64,000 bases of DNA from the NCBI RefSeq assembly GCF_014199195.1, contig NZ_JACIJE010000003.1, positions 372,001 to 436,000 of the forward strand. The letters run 5' to 3'. Shown here in pieces: positions 21,828 to 51,742 of this stretch (its first letter is position 1; each line of letters opens with the position of its first letter). Made by a program: the position numbers and the translations under genes. Source of the DNA: Neoroseomonas alkaliterrae. Its GTDB lineage: Bacteria > Pseudomonadota > Alphaproteobacteria > Acetobacterales > Acetobacteraceae. The notes below the pieces were generated by a model. The model was given only the letters and a program-made list of their open reading frames with translations, was not told the DNA's origin and did no database searches.

Positions 21828-22189
21828 GGCGCGGCGAGGCCGCGCCCCGCCCGCACCGAGCGCGAGCCTCTGTCATGCGCTGACGCCCGGCGGACATGGG
21901 CGAGGCCCTTGTCGGCGGGGCATCAGCCTTTGACGTCGCGCGGCCGCCCGGCCCGCCCCTCCCGTCGGTGAGAGGCGCGACGGAAAGGGGATCAGTCCGT
22001 GCCCGCCATGCGCGGTGCCTCGCCTTCGCGCGCGGCCCGGCCGCCGGGCCCGGTGCGCGATCGCGGTGGCCCATGGCGCGGCCTCGCGGACGGCGCCGGG
22101 CATGGGCGCGGCGAATGACGATGATGCCGCGAACCCATTGGCGCCGCCGCGCGCTTGCGCGCACATCAGCCGGCATGGAGGTCCCAGCC
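21828..22189. other. 362-base intergenic stretch with a decayed composite repeat (copy 3)
   Basis: No gene is supported. Directly after the nrdA stop, GGCGCGGC-GAG-GCCGCGCC (21828-21846) forms an 8-bp hairpin without a T-tail. From about 21886 the order of the composite repeat can be followed: CCGGCGGACATGGGCGAGG...CCTTGTCGGCGGGGCAT (first palindrome, to about 21930), then GCGCGGCCGCCC (linker), then a degraded second arm to about 22010. The remaining bases up to the VOC start show nothing I can name. Confidence 0.55.
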
Positions 22190-22699
22190 ATGCCCGACAC
22201 CAGCCCCGAACGCACCGCCGCCGCGATCCACCCCGGCACCCGCATCGGCCATGTCCACCTCAAGGTGGCGGATATCGAGCGCGCGCTCGGCTTCTGGCGC
22301 GACGTGATCGGCCTCGAGGAGCAGCAGCGCTACGGCGATCAGGCGGTGTTCCTCTCGGCCGGCGGCTACCACCACCACATCGCGCTCAACACATGGGAGA
22401 GCAAGGGCGGGGCCTGGCCGCCGCCGGGCACGACCGGGCTGTTCCACGTGGCGCTCCTCTACCCCAGCCGCGCGGCGCTGGCCGCGGCGCTGAAGCGCCT
22501 GCTCGATGCCGGCTGGCCGCTGGAAGGCGCCTCGGACCACGGGGTGTCTGAGGCGCTCTATCTCCGCGACCCGGACGGCAACGGGGTGGAACTCTACCGC
22601 GACCGCCCCGAGGCCGAATGGCCGCGCGACGCCGCGGGCAGGCTCGCGATGCACACCAAGCGGCTGGACCTCGGCGCGCTCCTCGCCGAGGCCGGCTGA
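22190..22699 (+). CDS. VOC-family (glyoxalase/extradiol dioxygenase fold) protein
   Basis: A 169-residue vicinal-oxygen-chelate protein. IGHVHLKVADIERALGFWRD begins the first beta-alpha-beta-beta-beta unit. LYLRDPDGNGVELYRDRP ends the second and carries the metal-binding glutamate; the first-module His in GHVHLKV and the His-rich GGYHHHIALNTW also fit. This arrangement resembles CatE-like catechol 2,3-dioxygenases, but substrate and even catalysis are unproven. A GGAGG sequence 8 bases before the ATG at 22190 fixes the start. The neighbouring trigger-factor frame reads antisense across this whole gene because of a frameshift. Confidence 0.85.
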   Translation: MPDTSPERTAAAIHPGTRIGHVHLKVADIERALGFWRDVIGLEEQQRYGDQAVFLSAGGYHHHIALNTWESKGGAWPPPGTTGLFHVALLYPSRAALAAALKRLLDAGWPLEGASDHGVSEALYLRDPDGNGVELYRDRPEAEWPRDAAGRLAMHTKRLDLGALLAEAG

Positions 22700-22769
22700 C
22701 GGAGCCACGCGCGGGGGCCACCCTCCGCCTGCCGCGTCGCGTGCCGGACAATGGCGCGATCGCGCGGCA

Positions 22770-24604
22770 TCAGCCGCGCAGCAGCTCGGCCGGGCTGACG
22801 AGGCGCTCGGAGATTGCGGCGCGCGCGCGAGCATCAGCTCCACCACCTTCTGCTCCAGCAGCGGGGCGCGCAGCGCATCCACCGCCGCCGGCGTGCGGCG
22901 GAAGTGCTCGAGCACCCGGTCCTCCTGGCCGGGATGGCGCGCCGCCTCCCGGCGGATGGCGCGGGCGAGTTCCTCCTCGCTGACCGTGAGACCTTCGGCG
23001 CGCGCGATCTCGGCCAGCAGCAGGCGCAGGCGCACGCGGCGCTCCGCGACGGCGCGATACTCGGCGCGCAGCGCGGCCTCGGGCCTGCCCGCTTCGCCGG
23101 GCGCTTCGCGGCCGGCGCGGCGCTCGGCGTCCCGTCGCGACCAGATGCGGCGGAACTCCGCCTCCACCAGTCCCGACGGCACGGCGAAGCGCGCGATCGA
23201 AGCCAGCGCATCGAGCACCGCTCGCCTGAGCAGGGCGCGCGCGCGCGCCTCGCAGTCCCGGCGCAGGCGCGCGAGCACCGCCGCCTCCAGCGCGGCGCGG
23301 TCGGCATGGCCGAGGCTGCGGGCCAGCGCGTCATCCACCGGCCGCGGGCGGCGCTGCCGGATGGCGAGCGCGGTGACGGCAAAGCGCGCGCGCTGCCCGG
23401 CGAGTTCCGGCGCGGGGTGCTCGGCGGGATAGACGAGATCGAGCTCGCGCGTCTCCCCGGGCGTGATGCCGACGAGCTGCCGGGTGAAGCCGGGGGCGAT
23501 GGCCTCGCCCCCGACGGGCACGTCGAGGCGCTGGAAGGTGCCGCCCGGAAAGACGGGCGCATCGGGCTCCTCGGCGCCGCCGAAGACGCGCGCGGGCCCG
23601 ATCCGCAGCACGAGATCCACCGGCGCGGCCGCGGCGAAGGCGATCTCGAGCAGCGGGCGCGCATGGGCGAGTGCGGGGTCGTCGCACAGCCTCAGGCTCG
23701 CGCACAGTTCCGCCGTGCCGAAGGCCAGCATGGCGCGCGAGGCGCGCAGGAGGCCGGTCGCCGAGCGCTCGTTGAAGCCGAGGCGGAGCGAGGCGCCCGC
23801 CGGCAGCGCGCCGGCGATGGCGCGCGCATGGACGCAGACCGACATCGCCTCGCCCGGCCCGGCCCGCACCGCATCCGCCGGCGCGAAGAACACGCGCAGA
23901 TGCCCGCCCGCCTGCGCGGTGCCGCGCAGCGCAAGGTCGAAGAAGGGGCGGCCATCCTCGGCCCCGGTGGAGAGGATCTCCCGCACCAGCCCGGCCGAGC
24001 AGTCGAGCGTCCATGTCGTGGGCGGCAGGCCGGGCATGCCGGCCTGGGCGCCGCGGCCCGGACCGTTCGGCAGCAGGTCCGGCGGCAGCCGGCCGACGAT
24101 GTCGCACAGCAGCGTATCGCCCGGGGCGGCGGGTCGCGGCGCCACCTCCTCGAAGGTGCCATGCTCGGCGGCGAGCGCCGCGAGCGCGGCGGCGATGTCG
24201 GCCTCGCCAGGCTCGGCGCGCAGGCGTTCGAGGCTCAGGCGCGGCAGTTCGGGCAGGCTGATCGCGGGAAGCGCCTCGAAGGTCACGCGGAAGAGGAGGC
24301 CGCGATCCTCGGCGAAGGATTCGACGGCGATGCGCGGCTGCTGGGCGGGCGTCAGGCCGCGCTCGGCGATCAGGCGCGCGGCGGCCTCGGCGACCTGCTG
24401 CTCGATCACCTCGGACAGGACCGACGCGCCGTAGCGCTGCAGCACCGCCGGCCAGGGCGCCTCGCCCGGGCGGAAGCCCGGCATGGGAACGGTCCCGGCG
24501 ATCTCGGCGAGGCGCCGGTCGCGCAAGGCGATGACCTGCGCGGCGGGAATGCGGACGCGGTAGCTGCGGAGCAGCCCGTCCTCGACAGCCTCGGTCACGT
24601 CCAT
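22770..24604 (-). CDS. tig: Divergent trigger factor with a beta-sandwich domain inserted in the PPIase domain; frameshifted at the 3' end
   Basis: Residues 1-115 form a trigger factor ribosome-binding domain (LRSYRVRIPAAQV, MPGFRPGEAP; the usual lysine of the FRK-type signature is replaced). GDTLLCDIVGR (162-172) starts the FKBP-type PPIase domain. It resumes only at VFPGGTFQRLDVPVGG (351-366) and IAPGFTRQLVGI. About 175 residues lie between (bases 23566-24091) and look like a carbohydrate-binding or phage-tail type jelly-roll (DLALRGTAQAG, PVDLVLRIGPARV). Residues 420-595 are the helical chaperone C-terminus. A CG-dinucleotide tract at 22819-22829 appears shifted by two bases. Without the shift the protein ends AISERLVSPAELLRG and stops at 22770; as written the frame runs on to 22166, antisense to the VOC gene. 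The usual clpP-clpX neighbours are absent. Confidence 0.8.
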
Positions 24605-48259: not shown

Positions 48260-51200
48260 TCATCGCGCCCGGATTGAAAGGGGTTGCATGCCCGCGCGCG
48301 CGGCGATCCGCGCGCGAATCCGGGCCAGGGCGGCATCGCCTTCCGCAACCACCGGTGCGCAGGCGCGGGCGGCGTAAATTCCGTTGCTCCTGTACGCCGC
48401 GAAATCCGCGGTCAGCGCCGTGACCGCGCCATTGCCGAAGAGGTGCCGGTTGCCGTCGTCGAGGTAGCTCTCGGTCACCGCGCCCTCGGACAGCAGCAGG
48501 CCGTGCTCCTCGAGCTCGACATGCCAATAGGTGACGCTGCGCGCCCAGATCTCCTGCACGATGGTCGTGCCGTTCACCAGCAGCTTCGCAGGCACCAGCC
48601 GCCCATCGAGGAACAGCGCGTGGTCCGGGCTGACGCGCAGGTCGCGGTGCGGCATGCCGTCCCCGAGCGCACCGGCCCGGATGCAGACCGGCGCCACCCG
48701 GGCCGGGTCGCGCTGGCGGGTCAGGTCGATGCGCGTGTGGCCGACCCAGCGCAGCGGCCGCAGCGGCGCGCCGCCATGCAGGGTGACGACCAGGTCGCCG
48801 GCGCGCAGCCGCTCGACCGGCACCTCCCCCCACGCGGTCGCGATGCGCGTGCCTTCCGCGAAGCAGACCACGTTGTCATCGGCCGGGTCGTAGCCGAAGA
48901 CGGTCAGCGTGTCGGCGCCGCGCACGAACAGCGTCGGCCCGCCCGGCACGCCCGGCGGGATCACGGTCCAGGGGTTGTTGCCCGGGTTCCATCCCTGCAG
49001 GTCGAGCGTGTCGGCGCCCGGGCCGAGATTGATGGTGTCGTTCCCGTCGCCGTCGTTCCAGACGAAGCTGTCGTCGCCGCCGCCGAGGTCGATGCTGTCC
49101 GCCCCCGCACCCGAGACGACGGTGTCCGCGCCCGAGGTCAGGACGTAGGACTCGAAGCCGCTGATCGTGTCCGTGCCGCCATGGCCGTCGGCGACGGTGT
49201 CGTCGTCGAGGTTCAGGAAGACGGGGCCGGGCGAACCGCTGTAGTCGAGGCTGTCCACCCCCGCGCCGCCGGCGAGGCTGTCATTGCCGGCCGAGCCGAT
49301 GACGGTGTCGTTGCCGTCCCCGCCGTTGATCGTCTCGGCATCGGCGCTGCCGATCAGGCTGTCGTTGCCGTCCCCGCCCAGCAGCGTGTCCGCACCGCCA
49401 CCGCCGACGATCGTGTCGTTGCCCGCACCACCGTCGAGGACATTCGCCCCGGCCCCACCCACCAGCGAATCCGCGTTCGCGCTGCCCAGCACGTTCTCGA
49501 CGCTGACCAGGCTGTCATTGCCCGCCCCGCCGCCCGCCGTGCCGTTGCCCGCCGCATCCAGCGCCACCGTCACACCCGACGCCGCACCCGCGTAGGAGGC
49601 CCAGTCGCTCCCCACCCCGCCGATCAGCGTGTCGTTGCCGCCGCCGCCATTGAGCGTGTCGTCGCCCGCGCCGCCGTCGAACAGGTTGGGTCCGCCGCCC
49701 GGCCCGCCGGTGATGAGGTCGTTGCCCGAACCGCCCAGCACGTTCTCGATGCTGACCAGGCTGTCATTGCCGGCATCGGCGCCCCCGGCGCCGGTGCCAT
49801 TGCCCGCATCGTTGAGCGCGACGGTGAGGTTGCTGGTCGCGTCGCGATAGTCGGCGACATCGGTGCCCGTGCCGCCGATCAGGCTGTCATTGCCCGCCCC
49901 GCCGGACAGCGTGTCGTTGCCGTCGCCGCCGTCGAGCGTGTCGTTGCCATCGCCGCCCGAGATCGTGTCGCTGTCCGCGCCGCCCGAAAGGCTGTCCGCT
50001 CCCGCGCCGCCGATCAGCGTGTCGTTGCCCGTCGCGCCGGTCAGGGTGTCGTTGCCGGCACCGCCGTCGATGAAGTTGTCGGCCGCGCTGCCGAGCACGG
50101 AATCATTGGCCGCGGTGCCGAGCACGTTCTCGAAGGCGCGGATCGTGTCCGTGCCCGCGCCGCCGCTCGCCGTCTCGGCCGCGAGGTTGGCCGTCACCCC
50201 GGCGGTGACGGTGCGATAGTCGAGCCAGTCGGTTCCGCCGCCGCCGGCCAGGCTGTCGTTGCCCGCCGTGCCAACCACCGTGTCGTCGCCGGCGCCGGCG
50301 TCGATCGTCTCGTTCTGCGCGCCGCCGAGCAGGCTGTCATTGCCCGCGCCGCCCAGGATCGTGTCGATGCCGCCCGAGCCGTCGATCGTGTCGTTGCCGT
50401 CGCCGCCATCGAGGAAGTCGGCGTCGCTCGCGGCGGTGCCGCTGCTCCCGATGATGAGGTCGTCACCGCCCTGCCCGAAGGCGCTGTCGCCGAGCGTGGT
50501 GACGATGGTGTCGTTGCCCTCGCCGCCGAGGATCGAGTTGTCGAAGTTCGAGCTCCCCAGCAGCGAGTCGTTGCCCGCGCCGCCGATCAGGTGCTCGAAC
50601 ACGTTGGCGCCGAAACTGTCCCCCTGCGCATGCCCGCCCGCGACGAAGCCGGTCGCGAGGTCCACCGTCACGCCCACGGTGTCCGAGGCGTAGGAGAGGG
50701 TGTCGGTGCCGCCGGAATCGACGAAGGTGTCCGCGCCCGCGCCGCCCTCGATCCAGTCGTTGTCCGCGCCGCCGCTCAGCGAATCATTGCCGGCGCCGCC
50801 GAGCAGGGTGTCGTTGCCGGCATCGCCGAGCAGCGTGTCGGCGCCTTCGCCGCCAAGGACGGAGTCATTGCCCGCCCCCGCATTGACGAAGTCGGTCCCG
50901 GCCCCGGCATCCACCGTGTCGTTGCCGCCGCCGGCGAGGATGCTGTCGTTGCCGCCGCCGCCCAGGATCGAATCGGCACCGCCGGCGCCGACGATGGTGT
51001 CGTTCCCCTCGCCGCCGTCGAGCGTATCGGGGTTGGTGTTGGTGCTGCCGATGGTGGCGCCGACCAGGCTGTCATCGCCGGTATCGCCGAACAGCCAGTC
51101 GAGGCCGCTGCCGCCGATCAGCGTGTCGTTGTCGTCGCCGCCGCGGATGGTGTCGTTGCCGCTCTCGCCACGCAGCGAATCATTGCCCGCATTGCCGACG

Positions 51201-51301
51201 AGCGAGTCGTTGCCGCCTTGGGCGCCGGCGGGCGAATCGCCGCCCGCTCCGCCGATGAAGGTGTCTGCGTTGTTGCTCGGACCGCCAGCAGACCAGGACA
51301 T
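48260..51301 (-). CDS. Large RTX-repeat protein with C-terminal Hint (hedgehog/intein) domain
   Basis: A 1013-residue acidic protein with no signal peptide. Residues about 35-800 are dozens of RTX nonapeptides of the GGxGxDxLx type (GGAGNDTL, GGDGNDTI), broken by longer spacers such as DTLSYASDTVGVTVDLATGF, forming calcium-binding beta-rolls. Residues 813-1013 are a Hint_2 domain: the nucleophile Cys813 in CFAEGTRIATAWGEVPVERL, then LRVSPDHALFLDGRLVPA. Hint domains can self-cleave, so the RTX part may be released or attached after export. RTX proteins normally leave by type I secretion; no such exporter is nearby. The ATG at 51301 has the ribosome-binding site GAGGAG 7 bases upstream. Confidence 0.93.
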   Translation of the reverse strand: MSWSAGGPSNNADTFIGGAGGDSPAGAQGGNDSLVGNAGNDSLRGESGNDTIRGGDDNDTLIGGSGLDWLFGDTGDDSLVGATIGSTNTNPDTLDGGEGNDTIVGAGGADSILGGGGNDSILAGGGNDTVDAGAGTDFVNAGAGNDSVLGGEGADTLLGDAGNDTLLGGAGNDSLSGGADNDWIEGGAGADTFVDSGGTDTLSYASDTVGVTVDLATGFVAGGHAQGDSFGANVFEHLIGGAGNDSLLGSSNFDNSILGGEGNDTIVTTLGDSAFGQGGDDLIIGSSGTAASDADFLDGGDGNDTIDGSGGIDTILGGAGNDSLLGGAQNETIDAGAGDDTVVGTAGNDSLAGGGGTDWLDYRTVTAGVTANLAAETASGGAGTDTIRAFENVLGTAANDSVLGSAADNFIDGGAGNDTLTGATGNDTLIGGAGADSLSGGADSDTISGGDGNDTLDGGDGNDTLSGGAGNDSLIGGTGTDVADYRDATSNLTVALNDAGNGTGAGGADAGNDSLVSIENVLGGSGNDLITGGPGGGPNLFDGGAGDDTLNGGGGNDTLIGGVGSDWASYAGAASGVTVALDAAGNGTAGGGAGNDSLVSVENVLGSANADSLVGGAGANVLDGGAGNDTIVGGGGADTLLGGDGNDSLIGSADAETINGGDGNDTVIGSAGNDSLAGGAGVDSLDYSGSPGPVFLNLDDDTVADGHGGTDTISGFESYVLTSGADTVVSGAGADSIDLGGGDDSFVWNDGDGNDTINLGPGADTLDLQGWNPGNNPWTVIPPGVPGGPTLFVRGADTLTVFGYDPADDNVVCFAEGTRIATAWGEVPVERLRAGDLVVTLHGGAPLRPLRWVGHTRIDLTRQRDPARVAPVCIRAGALGDGMPHRDLRVSPDHALFLDGRLVPAKLLVNGTTIVQEIWARSVTYWHVELEEHGLLLSEGAVTESYLDDGNRHLFGNGAVTALTADFAAYRSNGIYAARACAPVVAEGDAALARIRARIAARAGMQPLSIRAR
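49040..51260 (-). repeat. 27-base-periodic RTX coding repeats
   Basis: On the coding strand, units such as GGCGGCGCGGGCAACGAC recur at multiples of nine bases, giving the nonapeptide GGxGNDxLx. The DNA repeats are imperfect, with spacers, so the array can expand or contract by recombination. This is a coding repeat, not a CRISPR array. Confidence 0.85.
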
Positions 51302-51742
51302 GGCGTTCTCCTCAGGCGTCGTGCGCCGCGCGGCGGCGGGAAGGGGTGGCGGAGAGGTTCGCGGCACGCCGCGCAGGCGGGGTCGTCGTGATGCCGCGGT
51401 CGCAGCCTTCCACGCCCGGCATGACCCGGGGCTCCGTCAGGGCTGGCGGGAACGGGCAGACTCGGGACGGCAACGCAACCTCTCGAATTCGTGAAAAGAT
51501 CCAACGATTCGAACGATGAGCGTTGCCAATTACCGCCCGGAACGAATGCTCGCCAGGAGTTTTCCTCGGTGCAAGGCCCTCGAGAATATTAATCTTTCGT
51601 ATTGCAATTCATGCGCGCCGGACGCCCCGCCGGTTGCATCTGTCGGGCGAAGGCGCGGCGTGCGCACCGCCCTTCGCTCGCACCGCTGCCGCCCCCATTC
51701 CCGCGCGCCCGATCGTGCCGGCGCCGCGTCCGCGCCCTGACC
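51302..51742. other. 441-base upstream region of the RTX gene
   Basis: No gene is supported. The part 51480-51615 is markedly AT-richer than the rest of the window (for example GAGAATATTAATCTTTCGTATTGC) and probably holds the RTX promoter. I could not fix -35 and -10 boxes with proper spacing. The remainder is GC-rich and borders the ccmB stop. Confidence 0.5.

Follow-up and report, generated by a model that had tools for sequence, protein, structure and literature searches.

Does trigger factor (TF), a bacterial chaperone generally considered highly uniform, merely tolerate a foreign domain inside its peptidyl-prolyl isomerase (PPIase) head, or does it put such a domain to use? The question is raised by a 64,000-nucleotide stretch of the Neoroseomonas alkaliterrae genome (contig NZ_JACIJE010000003.1, positions 372,001 to 436,000; hereafter the window), which encodes a TF (gene tig) whose PPIase domain is interrupted. 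We know of no agreed essential role for the PPIase domain of TF. Sequence profiles and structure prediction indicate that the inserted domain is very probably a β-sandwich resembling family 4 carbohydrate-binding modules (CBM4) and related to modules of phage tail proteins. No published description of a TF with a phage-tail-type domain inside its PPIase was found in the open-access literature searched, and none of the matches listed (titles and abstract starts) reports this kind of architecture.

A separate domain within the TF PPIase

The window gene is encoded on the minus strand from an ATG at 24604. In its product, P0001, a split FKBP domain lies between Trigger_N and Trigger_C:

22829..24604, minus strand: divergent second TF gene with an inserted domain (P0001 residues 1-592; Pfam, alignments)
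24176..24604, minus strand: Trigger_N ribosome-binding domain with the signature GFRPGE (Pfam PF05697, E 1.9e-24)
24086..24157, minus strand: FKBP/PPIase part 1, ending where E. coli V172 aligns (comparison with solved TF structures)
23564..24085, minus strand: predicted CBM4-like β-sandwich insert, residues 174-347 (phage-tail-module relatives, predicted model)
23348..23563, minus strand: FKBP/PPIase part 2, starting at the equivalent of E. coli D173, with I195 changed to A and Y221 to H (alignments)
22829..23293, minus strand: Trigger_C helical chaperone arms (Pfam PF05698, E 6.4e-27)

The original prediction, made from the DNA alone, had recognized TF flanks around a β-sandwich-like insert of the phage-tail or carbohydrate-binding kind at 23566-24091; both the flanks and the nature of the insert held up, and the coordinates agree with ours to within 6 bases. 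Trigger_N (residues 1-143, 87.1 bits, cut-off 22.2) and Trigger_C (residues 438-592, 95 bits, cut-off 22.7) stand in order around the split FKBP domain, of which Pfam recovers a faint trace behind the insert (residues 355-403 at E 0.31; 11.8 bits, cut-off 21.1). The genome has two tig genes. The other, intact one is the main tig and encodes P0002 (592 amino acids), whose FKBP score of 31.8 bits exceeds the cut-off and whose insert occupies the same site as that of P0001, at 50% identity. Both proteins align to solved TFs on either side of the insert: P0001 to 1t11 over residues 2-173 and again from 348, and the main TF to E. coli TF (1w26) up to residue 172, resuming at 173 after 156 query residues. 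The architecture matches E. coli TF (1w26/2vrh) in domain order and over the full length outside the insert, and differs from it by the ~156-174 additional residues placed between residues 172 and 173 and, in the window copy, by an altered pocket and the replacement of K48 by E.

The insert is not ordinary PPIase sequence, given that the 46 insert-free main TFs read in the family contain no counterpart. Nor is it a chance open frame, since it is conserved in 69 database proteins, each of which has a TF Pfam domain (scoring covered the 7995 candidates with the most words in common), and is modeled with high confidence as a separate domain, as had been foreseen. Where the source database annotates these proteins, it mostly calls them trigger factor and twice hypothetical protein. 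The full-length TF model has a predicted template modeling score of 0.49. The predicted fold of the insert is a jelly-roll β-sandwich, nearest to CBM4, CBM22, and hyaluronan-binding modules. Its likeness to Rhodothermus marinus CBM4-2 is one of predicted fold at 13% sequence identity; neither P0001 nor the main TF has a Pfam CBM_4_9 match listed at E values up to 10, with filters that remove most matches above 0.1, and one tail homologue matches CBM_4_9 weakly (E 0.021). An intein-like element, considered by eye from the insert ends only, was rejected.

The connection to phage tails comes from a profile built from 19 inserts. Among the matches read, those other than TFs resemble phage-type tail proteins; the profile retrieves these tail-type open reading frames (ORFs) with E values between 3.3e-29 and 7.1e-11, in most cases across positions 7-177 of its 186. 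The 41 modules used for comparison were called tail-type by their mutual likeness. PHROGs, run on seven of these proteins, assigned 7/7 to tail families; Pfam, run on ten, found a phage domain in two, GP46 in one and Mu Gp48 in the other. The L169 tail module is 38.6% identical to the tail protein of Azospirillum phage Cd over 99% of its length (E 7e-26). CBM-bearing tail proteins have precedent, as evolved Dit proteins are described in which a CBM of about 150 residues was added to a tail protein (PMC9128512). The family profile likewise locates the module behind GP46, Gp48, and distal-tail domains of tail proteins; in TF, by contrast, it lies inside a cytosolic chaperone. The TF inserts keep the fold residues and are acidic, and several residues near-fixed in tails are mostly lost: R179, R182, E184, W254, and E341 (P0001 numbering) each occur in 7 or fewer of 31 TF inserts versus 32-38 of 40 tail modules.

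As a separate observation, the same CBM-like module follows Mu Gp48, GP46, and distal tail proteins (L163:3840-4970, plus strand; L169:4284-5501, plus strand; L165:4081-5286, minus strand). Coming after three different tail or baseplate proteins, the module is itself mobile among phages.

Distribution and history of the insert

Up to eight candidates per genome were scored with the insert profile, so the counts that follow are lower bounds. Among 397 family genomes, at least 72 match the profile. The main TF carries the insert in at least 27, across eight genera (frames read): 13 in the genus of the window and 14 in g4, g6, g16, g17, g29, g37, and g64. A divergent second TF carries it in at least 11, and either copy in at least 34. 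The insert is not peculiar to the window paralogue: the main tig of the same genome and of 26 other genomes has it. The earlier idea of a specialized paralogue agrees with the divergence of the second tig and its changed PPIase-pocket and docking residues. At profile-search sensitivity, no main-TF insert was found in the other 370 genomes. Within the genus, 33 of 35 genomes have a full-range match, five of them two, and 13 of the matching genomes were read as TF genes; the two lacking a match are 78% and 93% complete.

Beyond the family the insert is scarce. In 385 genomes of the class (some family members included), matches appeared only in the window genome and in G496, where the match is a tail-type ORF. 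Plasmid sequences gave no insert match, phage records gave 32 TF-like matches with none covering 80% of the query, and the single TF on a viral contig (L176) has no insert. No standalone relative of about 96-306 amino acids was found at E 0.01 in a set of 5.8 billion proteins. A protein search from the G063 insert returned two proteins, the query included, which suggests that divergence limits such searches. A source within the window genome was also sought and rejected: beyond the two tig genes there were three weak matches (E 0.026, 0.095, and 2.2), at loci whose longest frames resemble P450, YbaB, and ABC-transporter genes by eye, the matching frames themselves being unstudied. With the insert profile and all 94 candidates of that genome scored, the two tig genes alone match.

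A tree of 72 modules (20 from main TFs, 11 from second TFs, 41 tail-type; LG+F+R4; 6 of the 13 read genus members taken and domain matches below 25 bits dropped) places all 31 TF inserts in one clade against the tail modules, with an ultrafast bootstrap (UFBoot) of 97. By score, 26 of the 31 are closer to TF inserts of other genera than to tails. In a core tree built without the inserts, carriers are scattered among non-carriers. The 66 main TFs (20 with and 46 without the insert) require 8 Fitch changes versus a shuffled mean of 17.4 (minimum 12), and a Dollo count on the same proteins gives a single gain followed by 10 losses within a clade of 39 TFs. The insert and core trees have 12 of 17 splits in common, 11 of them within a genus, and the five conflicting insert splits have support of 31-70. 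One capture followed by descent with many losses fits these data best, as judged from one FastTree core tree and mainly within-genus agreement; the numbers of captures and losses are reconstructed from it.

Several features sit less easily with such a history. The sole split shared across genera joins g4 with g17, at an insert-tree support of 70, and of the five core-only splits, which the insert tree lacks, three are supported at 0.992, 0.915, and 0.893, so that some transfer of the insert between genera is possible. Four second copies of g96 and that of G104 (G104b) score higher against tails than against TF inserts of other genera, making more than one capture possible. Multiple independent captures are disfavored by the UFBoot 97 tree, although the 5/31 scores toward tails leave them some probability.

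Within genera, the insert seems to have been exchanged. Between G162 and G205, the flanks are 96-97% identical in protein and the insert 37%; dS, the synonymous rate, is 0.12-0.23 in the flanks and 0.69 in the insert (dN, its nonsynonymous counterpart, 0.63), these being Nei-Gojobori estimates and rough in GC-rich DNA. So high a dS in the insert is better explained by exchange with a distant allele than by rapid point mutation. Per 20 codons, nucleotide identity in this pair is 90-100% in the flanks, 83% and 68% at the module edges, and 50-59% within the module. G003 and G372 repeat the pattern (flanks 91% identical, insert 38%). In the closest pairs, the insert is under purifying selection (dN/dS 0.09-0.27; up to 0.91 in other pairs). 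There its constraint is weaker than that of the core in main TFs. The second-copy pair G104b/G331b shows the opposite, with 0.09 for the insert and 0.15 and 0.21 for the core, and purifying selection suggests that the second copies, at least in that pair, are functional.

Possible roles of the inserted module

Key pocket residues of E. coli TF are given as F168, F177, E178, I195, F198, and Y221 (PMC9527764). Because the insertion point falls between the equivalents of F168 and F177/E178, the module is placed on the rim of the pocket; it enters between residues 172 and 173, before F177/E178, and not in the 80s loop near Y221, where a flap insertion would lie. The reading that we favor, at about even odds, is that this is a TF in which a domesticated phage-adhesin-type fold provides an additional module for contacting clients, next to the prolyl-isomerase pocket. 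An FKBP hairpin would have been opened, most likely once, by a CBM4-like β-sandwich in the ancestor of part of the Acetobacteraceae, and the captured domain would then have passed by descent, been lost many times, and been exchanged within genera. The working of such a module is proposed tentatively and by analogy: on the pocket rim it could add a surface that touches nascent clients, and it might pass them to the isomerase site, as is thought for the insert-in-flap domain of SlyD. SlyD and SlpA likewise carry a separate domain in an FKBP loop near the active site (PMC11013033, PMC5034536), and chaperone domains inserted near the FKBP12 site are described as greatly raising folding activity (PMC11013033). 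The TF insert, unlike theirs, follows the first pocket strand in a hairpin rather than the flap, has a CBM4-like fold, and resides in TF.

This difference in insertion site from the SlyD flap is among the points that tell against client contact. Across all the main-TF pairs compared, evolution is faster in the insert (dN/dS 0.17-0.91) than in the TF core. The status of a tig as the only one in its genome is uncertain, because the divergent second copies of G127, G361, G312, and G344 were missed by the Trigger_N search. The window copy shows signs of possible decay (frameshifted end, I195A, Y221H). Finally, many close relatives lack the insert. Its fast evolution and this patchy presence would also suit a tolerated passenger, an explanation that we regard as nearly as likely as client contact. 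The tip of the FKBP hairpin would then be permissive and the fold useless, constrained only to fold and stay soluble, with fast drift and loss whenever recombination brings in an insert-free allele. Such a passenger would agree with the ten Dollo losses in the clade of 39, with the many family genomes (370 of 397) and two of 35 genus genomes, one of them 93% complete, where no insert was found, and with the loss, in most inserts, of the tail near-fixed residues. It would also agree with an insert dN 1.4 to 9 times that of the core in most close main-TF pairs and far higher in G162/G205 and G003/G372. It is harder to square with strong purifying selection in several pairs (such as G104b/G331b, 0.09), with the full-range match in 33 of 35 genus genomes, 13 read as TF, and with retention in the main TF of eight genera.

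A bolder view, to our mind unlikely, is that the module is a fast-changing, exchangeable cassette of phage-adhesin origin whose alleles each lineage keeps replacing, retuning the choice of nascent chains or disturbing phage tail assembly at the ribosome; if this were true, the module would act as a specificity domain that varies while the rest of the chaperone stays conserved. A decoy or poison for the tail assembly of incoming phages, varied and exchanged like a host-parasite interface, seems very improbable: common ancestry with tail modules and the abrupt divergence confined to the module in G162/G205 and G003/G372 suit it, but TF inserts cluster together rather than with tail modules of their own genus, and the closest pairs are under purifying selection. 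Retained carbohydrate binding, directing TF to glycan-bearing clients or cell-envelope precursors, is also improbable, if less so. The nearest folds (CBM4, CBM22, and hyaluronan-binding modules) and the sulfotransferase-like (G104, G331), glycosyltransferase (G127), and upstream sugar transferase (G312) genes near some second tig genes speak for it; however, TF is cytosolic, the tail near-fixed residues are mostly gone, and no sugar-binding site could be mapped on the insert.

The family shows a core housekeeping protein that has taken up a phage host-recognition fold. Close relatives with and without the ~170-residue module, which also differs from one carrier to another, form a natural matched set of TFs that would allow a direct test of the part played by the PPIase head in client choice at the ribosome.

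The window copy and other second TFs

The docking lysine had been reported as replaced in the window gene. The first lysine of the E. coli GFRxGK-region signature is P in all the TF frames counted (114/114); the window copy (GFRPGE) stands out by having E in place of the second lysine (K48 of E. coli), with GFR retained. "PGK" occurs in 108 of the 114 TF frames with a recognizable signature, duplicates included. In the alignments, positions 168, 195, and 221 (E. coli numbering) are occupied by I, A, and H in the window copy, where the main TF retains F168, I195, and Y221. Having kept the module while its docking and pocket residues changed, the window copy probably acts off the ribosome or serves a restricted range of clients, and a division of labor between the two TFs may follow; judged from sequence, it may be specialized or decaying.

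Missing clp neighbors had likewise been noted, correctly, for the window tig. Their absence is uninformative, because the main tig of the genus (2/2 examined) adjoins branched-chain amino-acid transporter genes and not clpPX. A second, canonical tig beside clpPX had been raised as a possibility; the other tig of the genome, which encodes P0002, bears the insert and lies elsewhere. In g4, g6, g17, g37, and g64, the insert-bearing tig adjoins clpP in 10/10 cases examined by motif search, and clpX is also in the fetched stretch for nine.

Neighborhoods of the divergent second tig vary. It directly adjoins an RTX-Hint_2 gene in G361, G344, and G152, and the Hint_2 match in G361 is the only one in that genome. 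In G127, it adjoins a glycosyltransferase gene, and in G312 the next upstream gene is a sugar transferase. No RTX-Hint, sugar-transferase, or sulfotransferase gene was noticed beside the second tig of G095, G028, or the window, and we therefore claim no common client for second TFs. RTX-Hint_2 genes beside a second tig occur in two genera (L138:6208-8451, minus strand; L152:1244-2791, plus strand; L117:58-408, plus strand, Hint_2 end only), and a sulfotransferase-like gene lies immediately upstream in G104 and G331 (L035:6902-7747, plus strand; L120:10484-11329, minus strand). At L119:3278-8773 (minus strand), an open frame fuses glycosyltransferase-like sequence, recognized by eye, to a TF copy without a PPIase domain. 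The window also encodes a large RTX protein (48260-51367, minus strand) that combines 17 RTX-family stretches with a Hint_2 domain; it is ~24 kb from the window tig in a genome with seven Hint_2 matches and is thus unremarkable.

Downstream of the window tig lie:

22166..22830, minus strand: open-frame run-on beyond the usual TF end, opposite the glyoxalase/VOC gene (frame comparison)
21896-22699, plus strand: glyoxalase/VOC gene, convergent with the window tig

The last ~16 residues of P0001 are out of frame relative to its 95%-identical homologue P0069, and the open frame consequently continues to 22166 over the glyoxalase gene. A terminus as in P0069 is readable in another frame, with a stop at ~22770-22772. 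The frame change falls in a GC run (window 22770-22830, minus strand) and would be either a mutation or an assembly slip.
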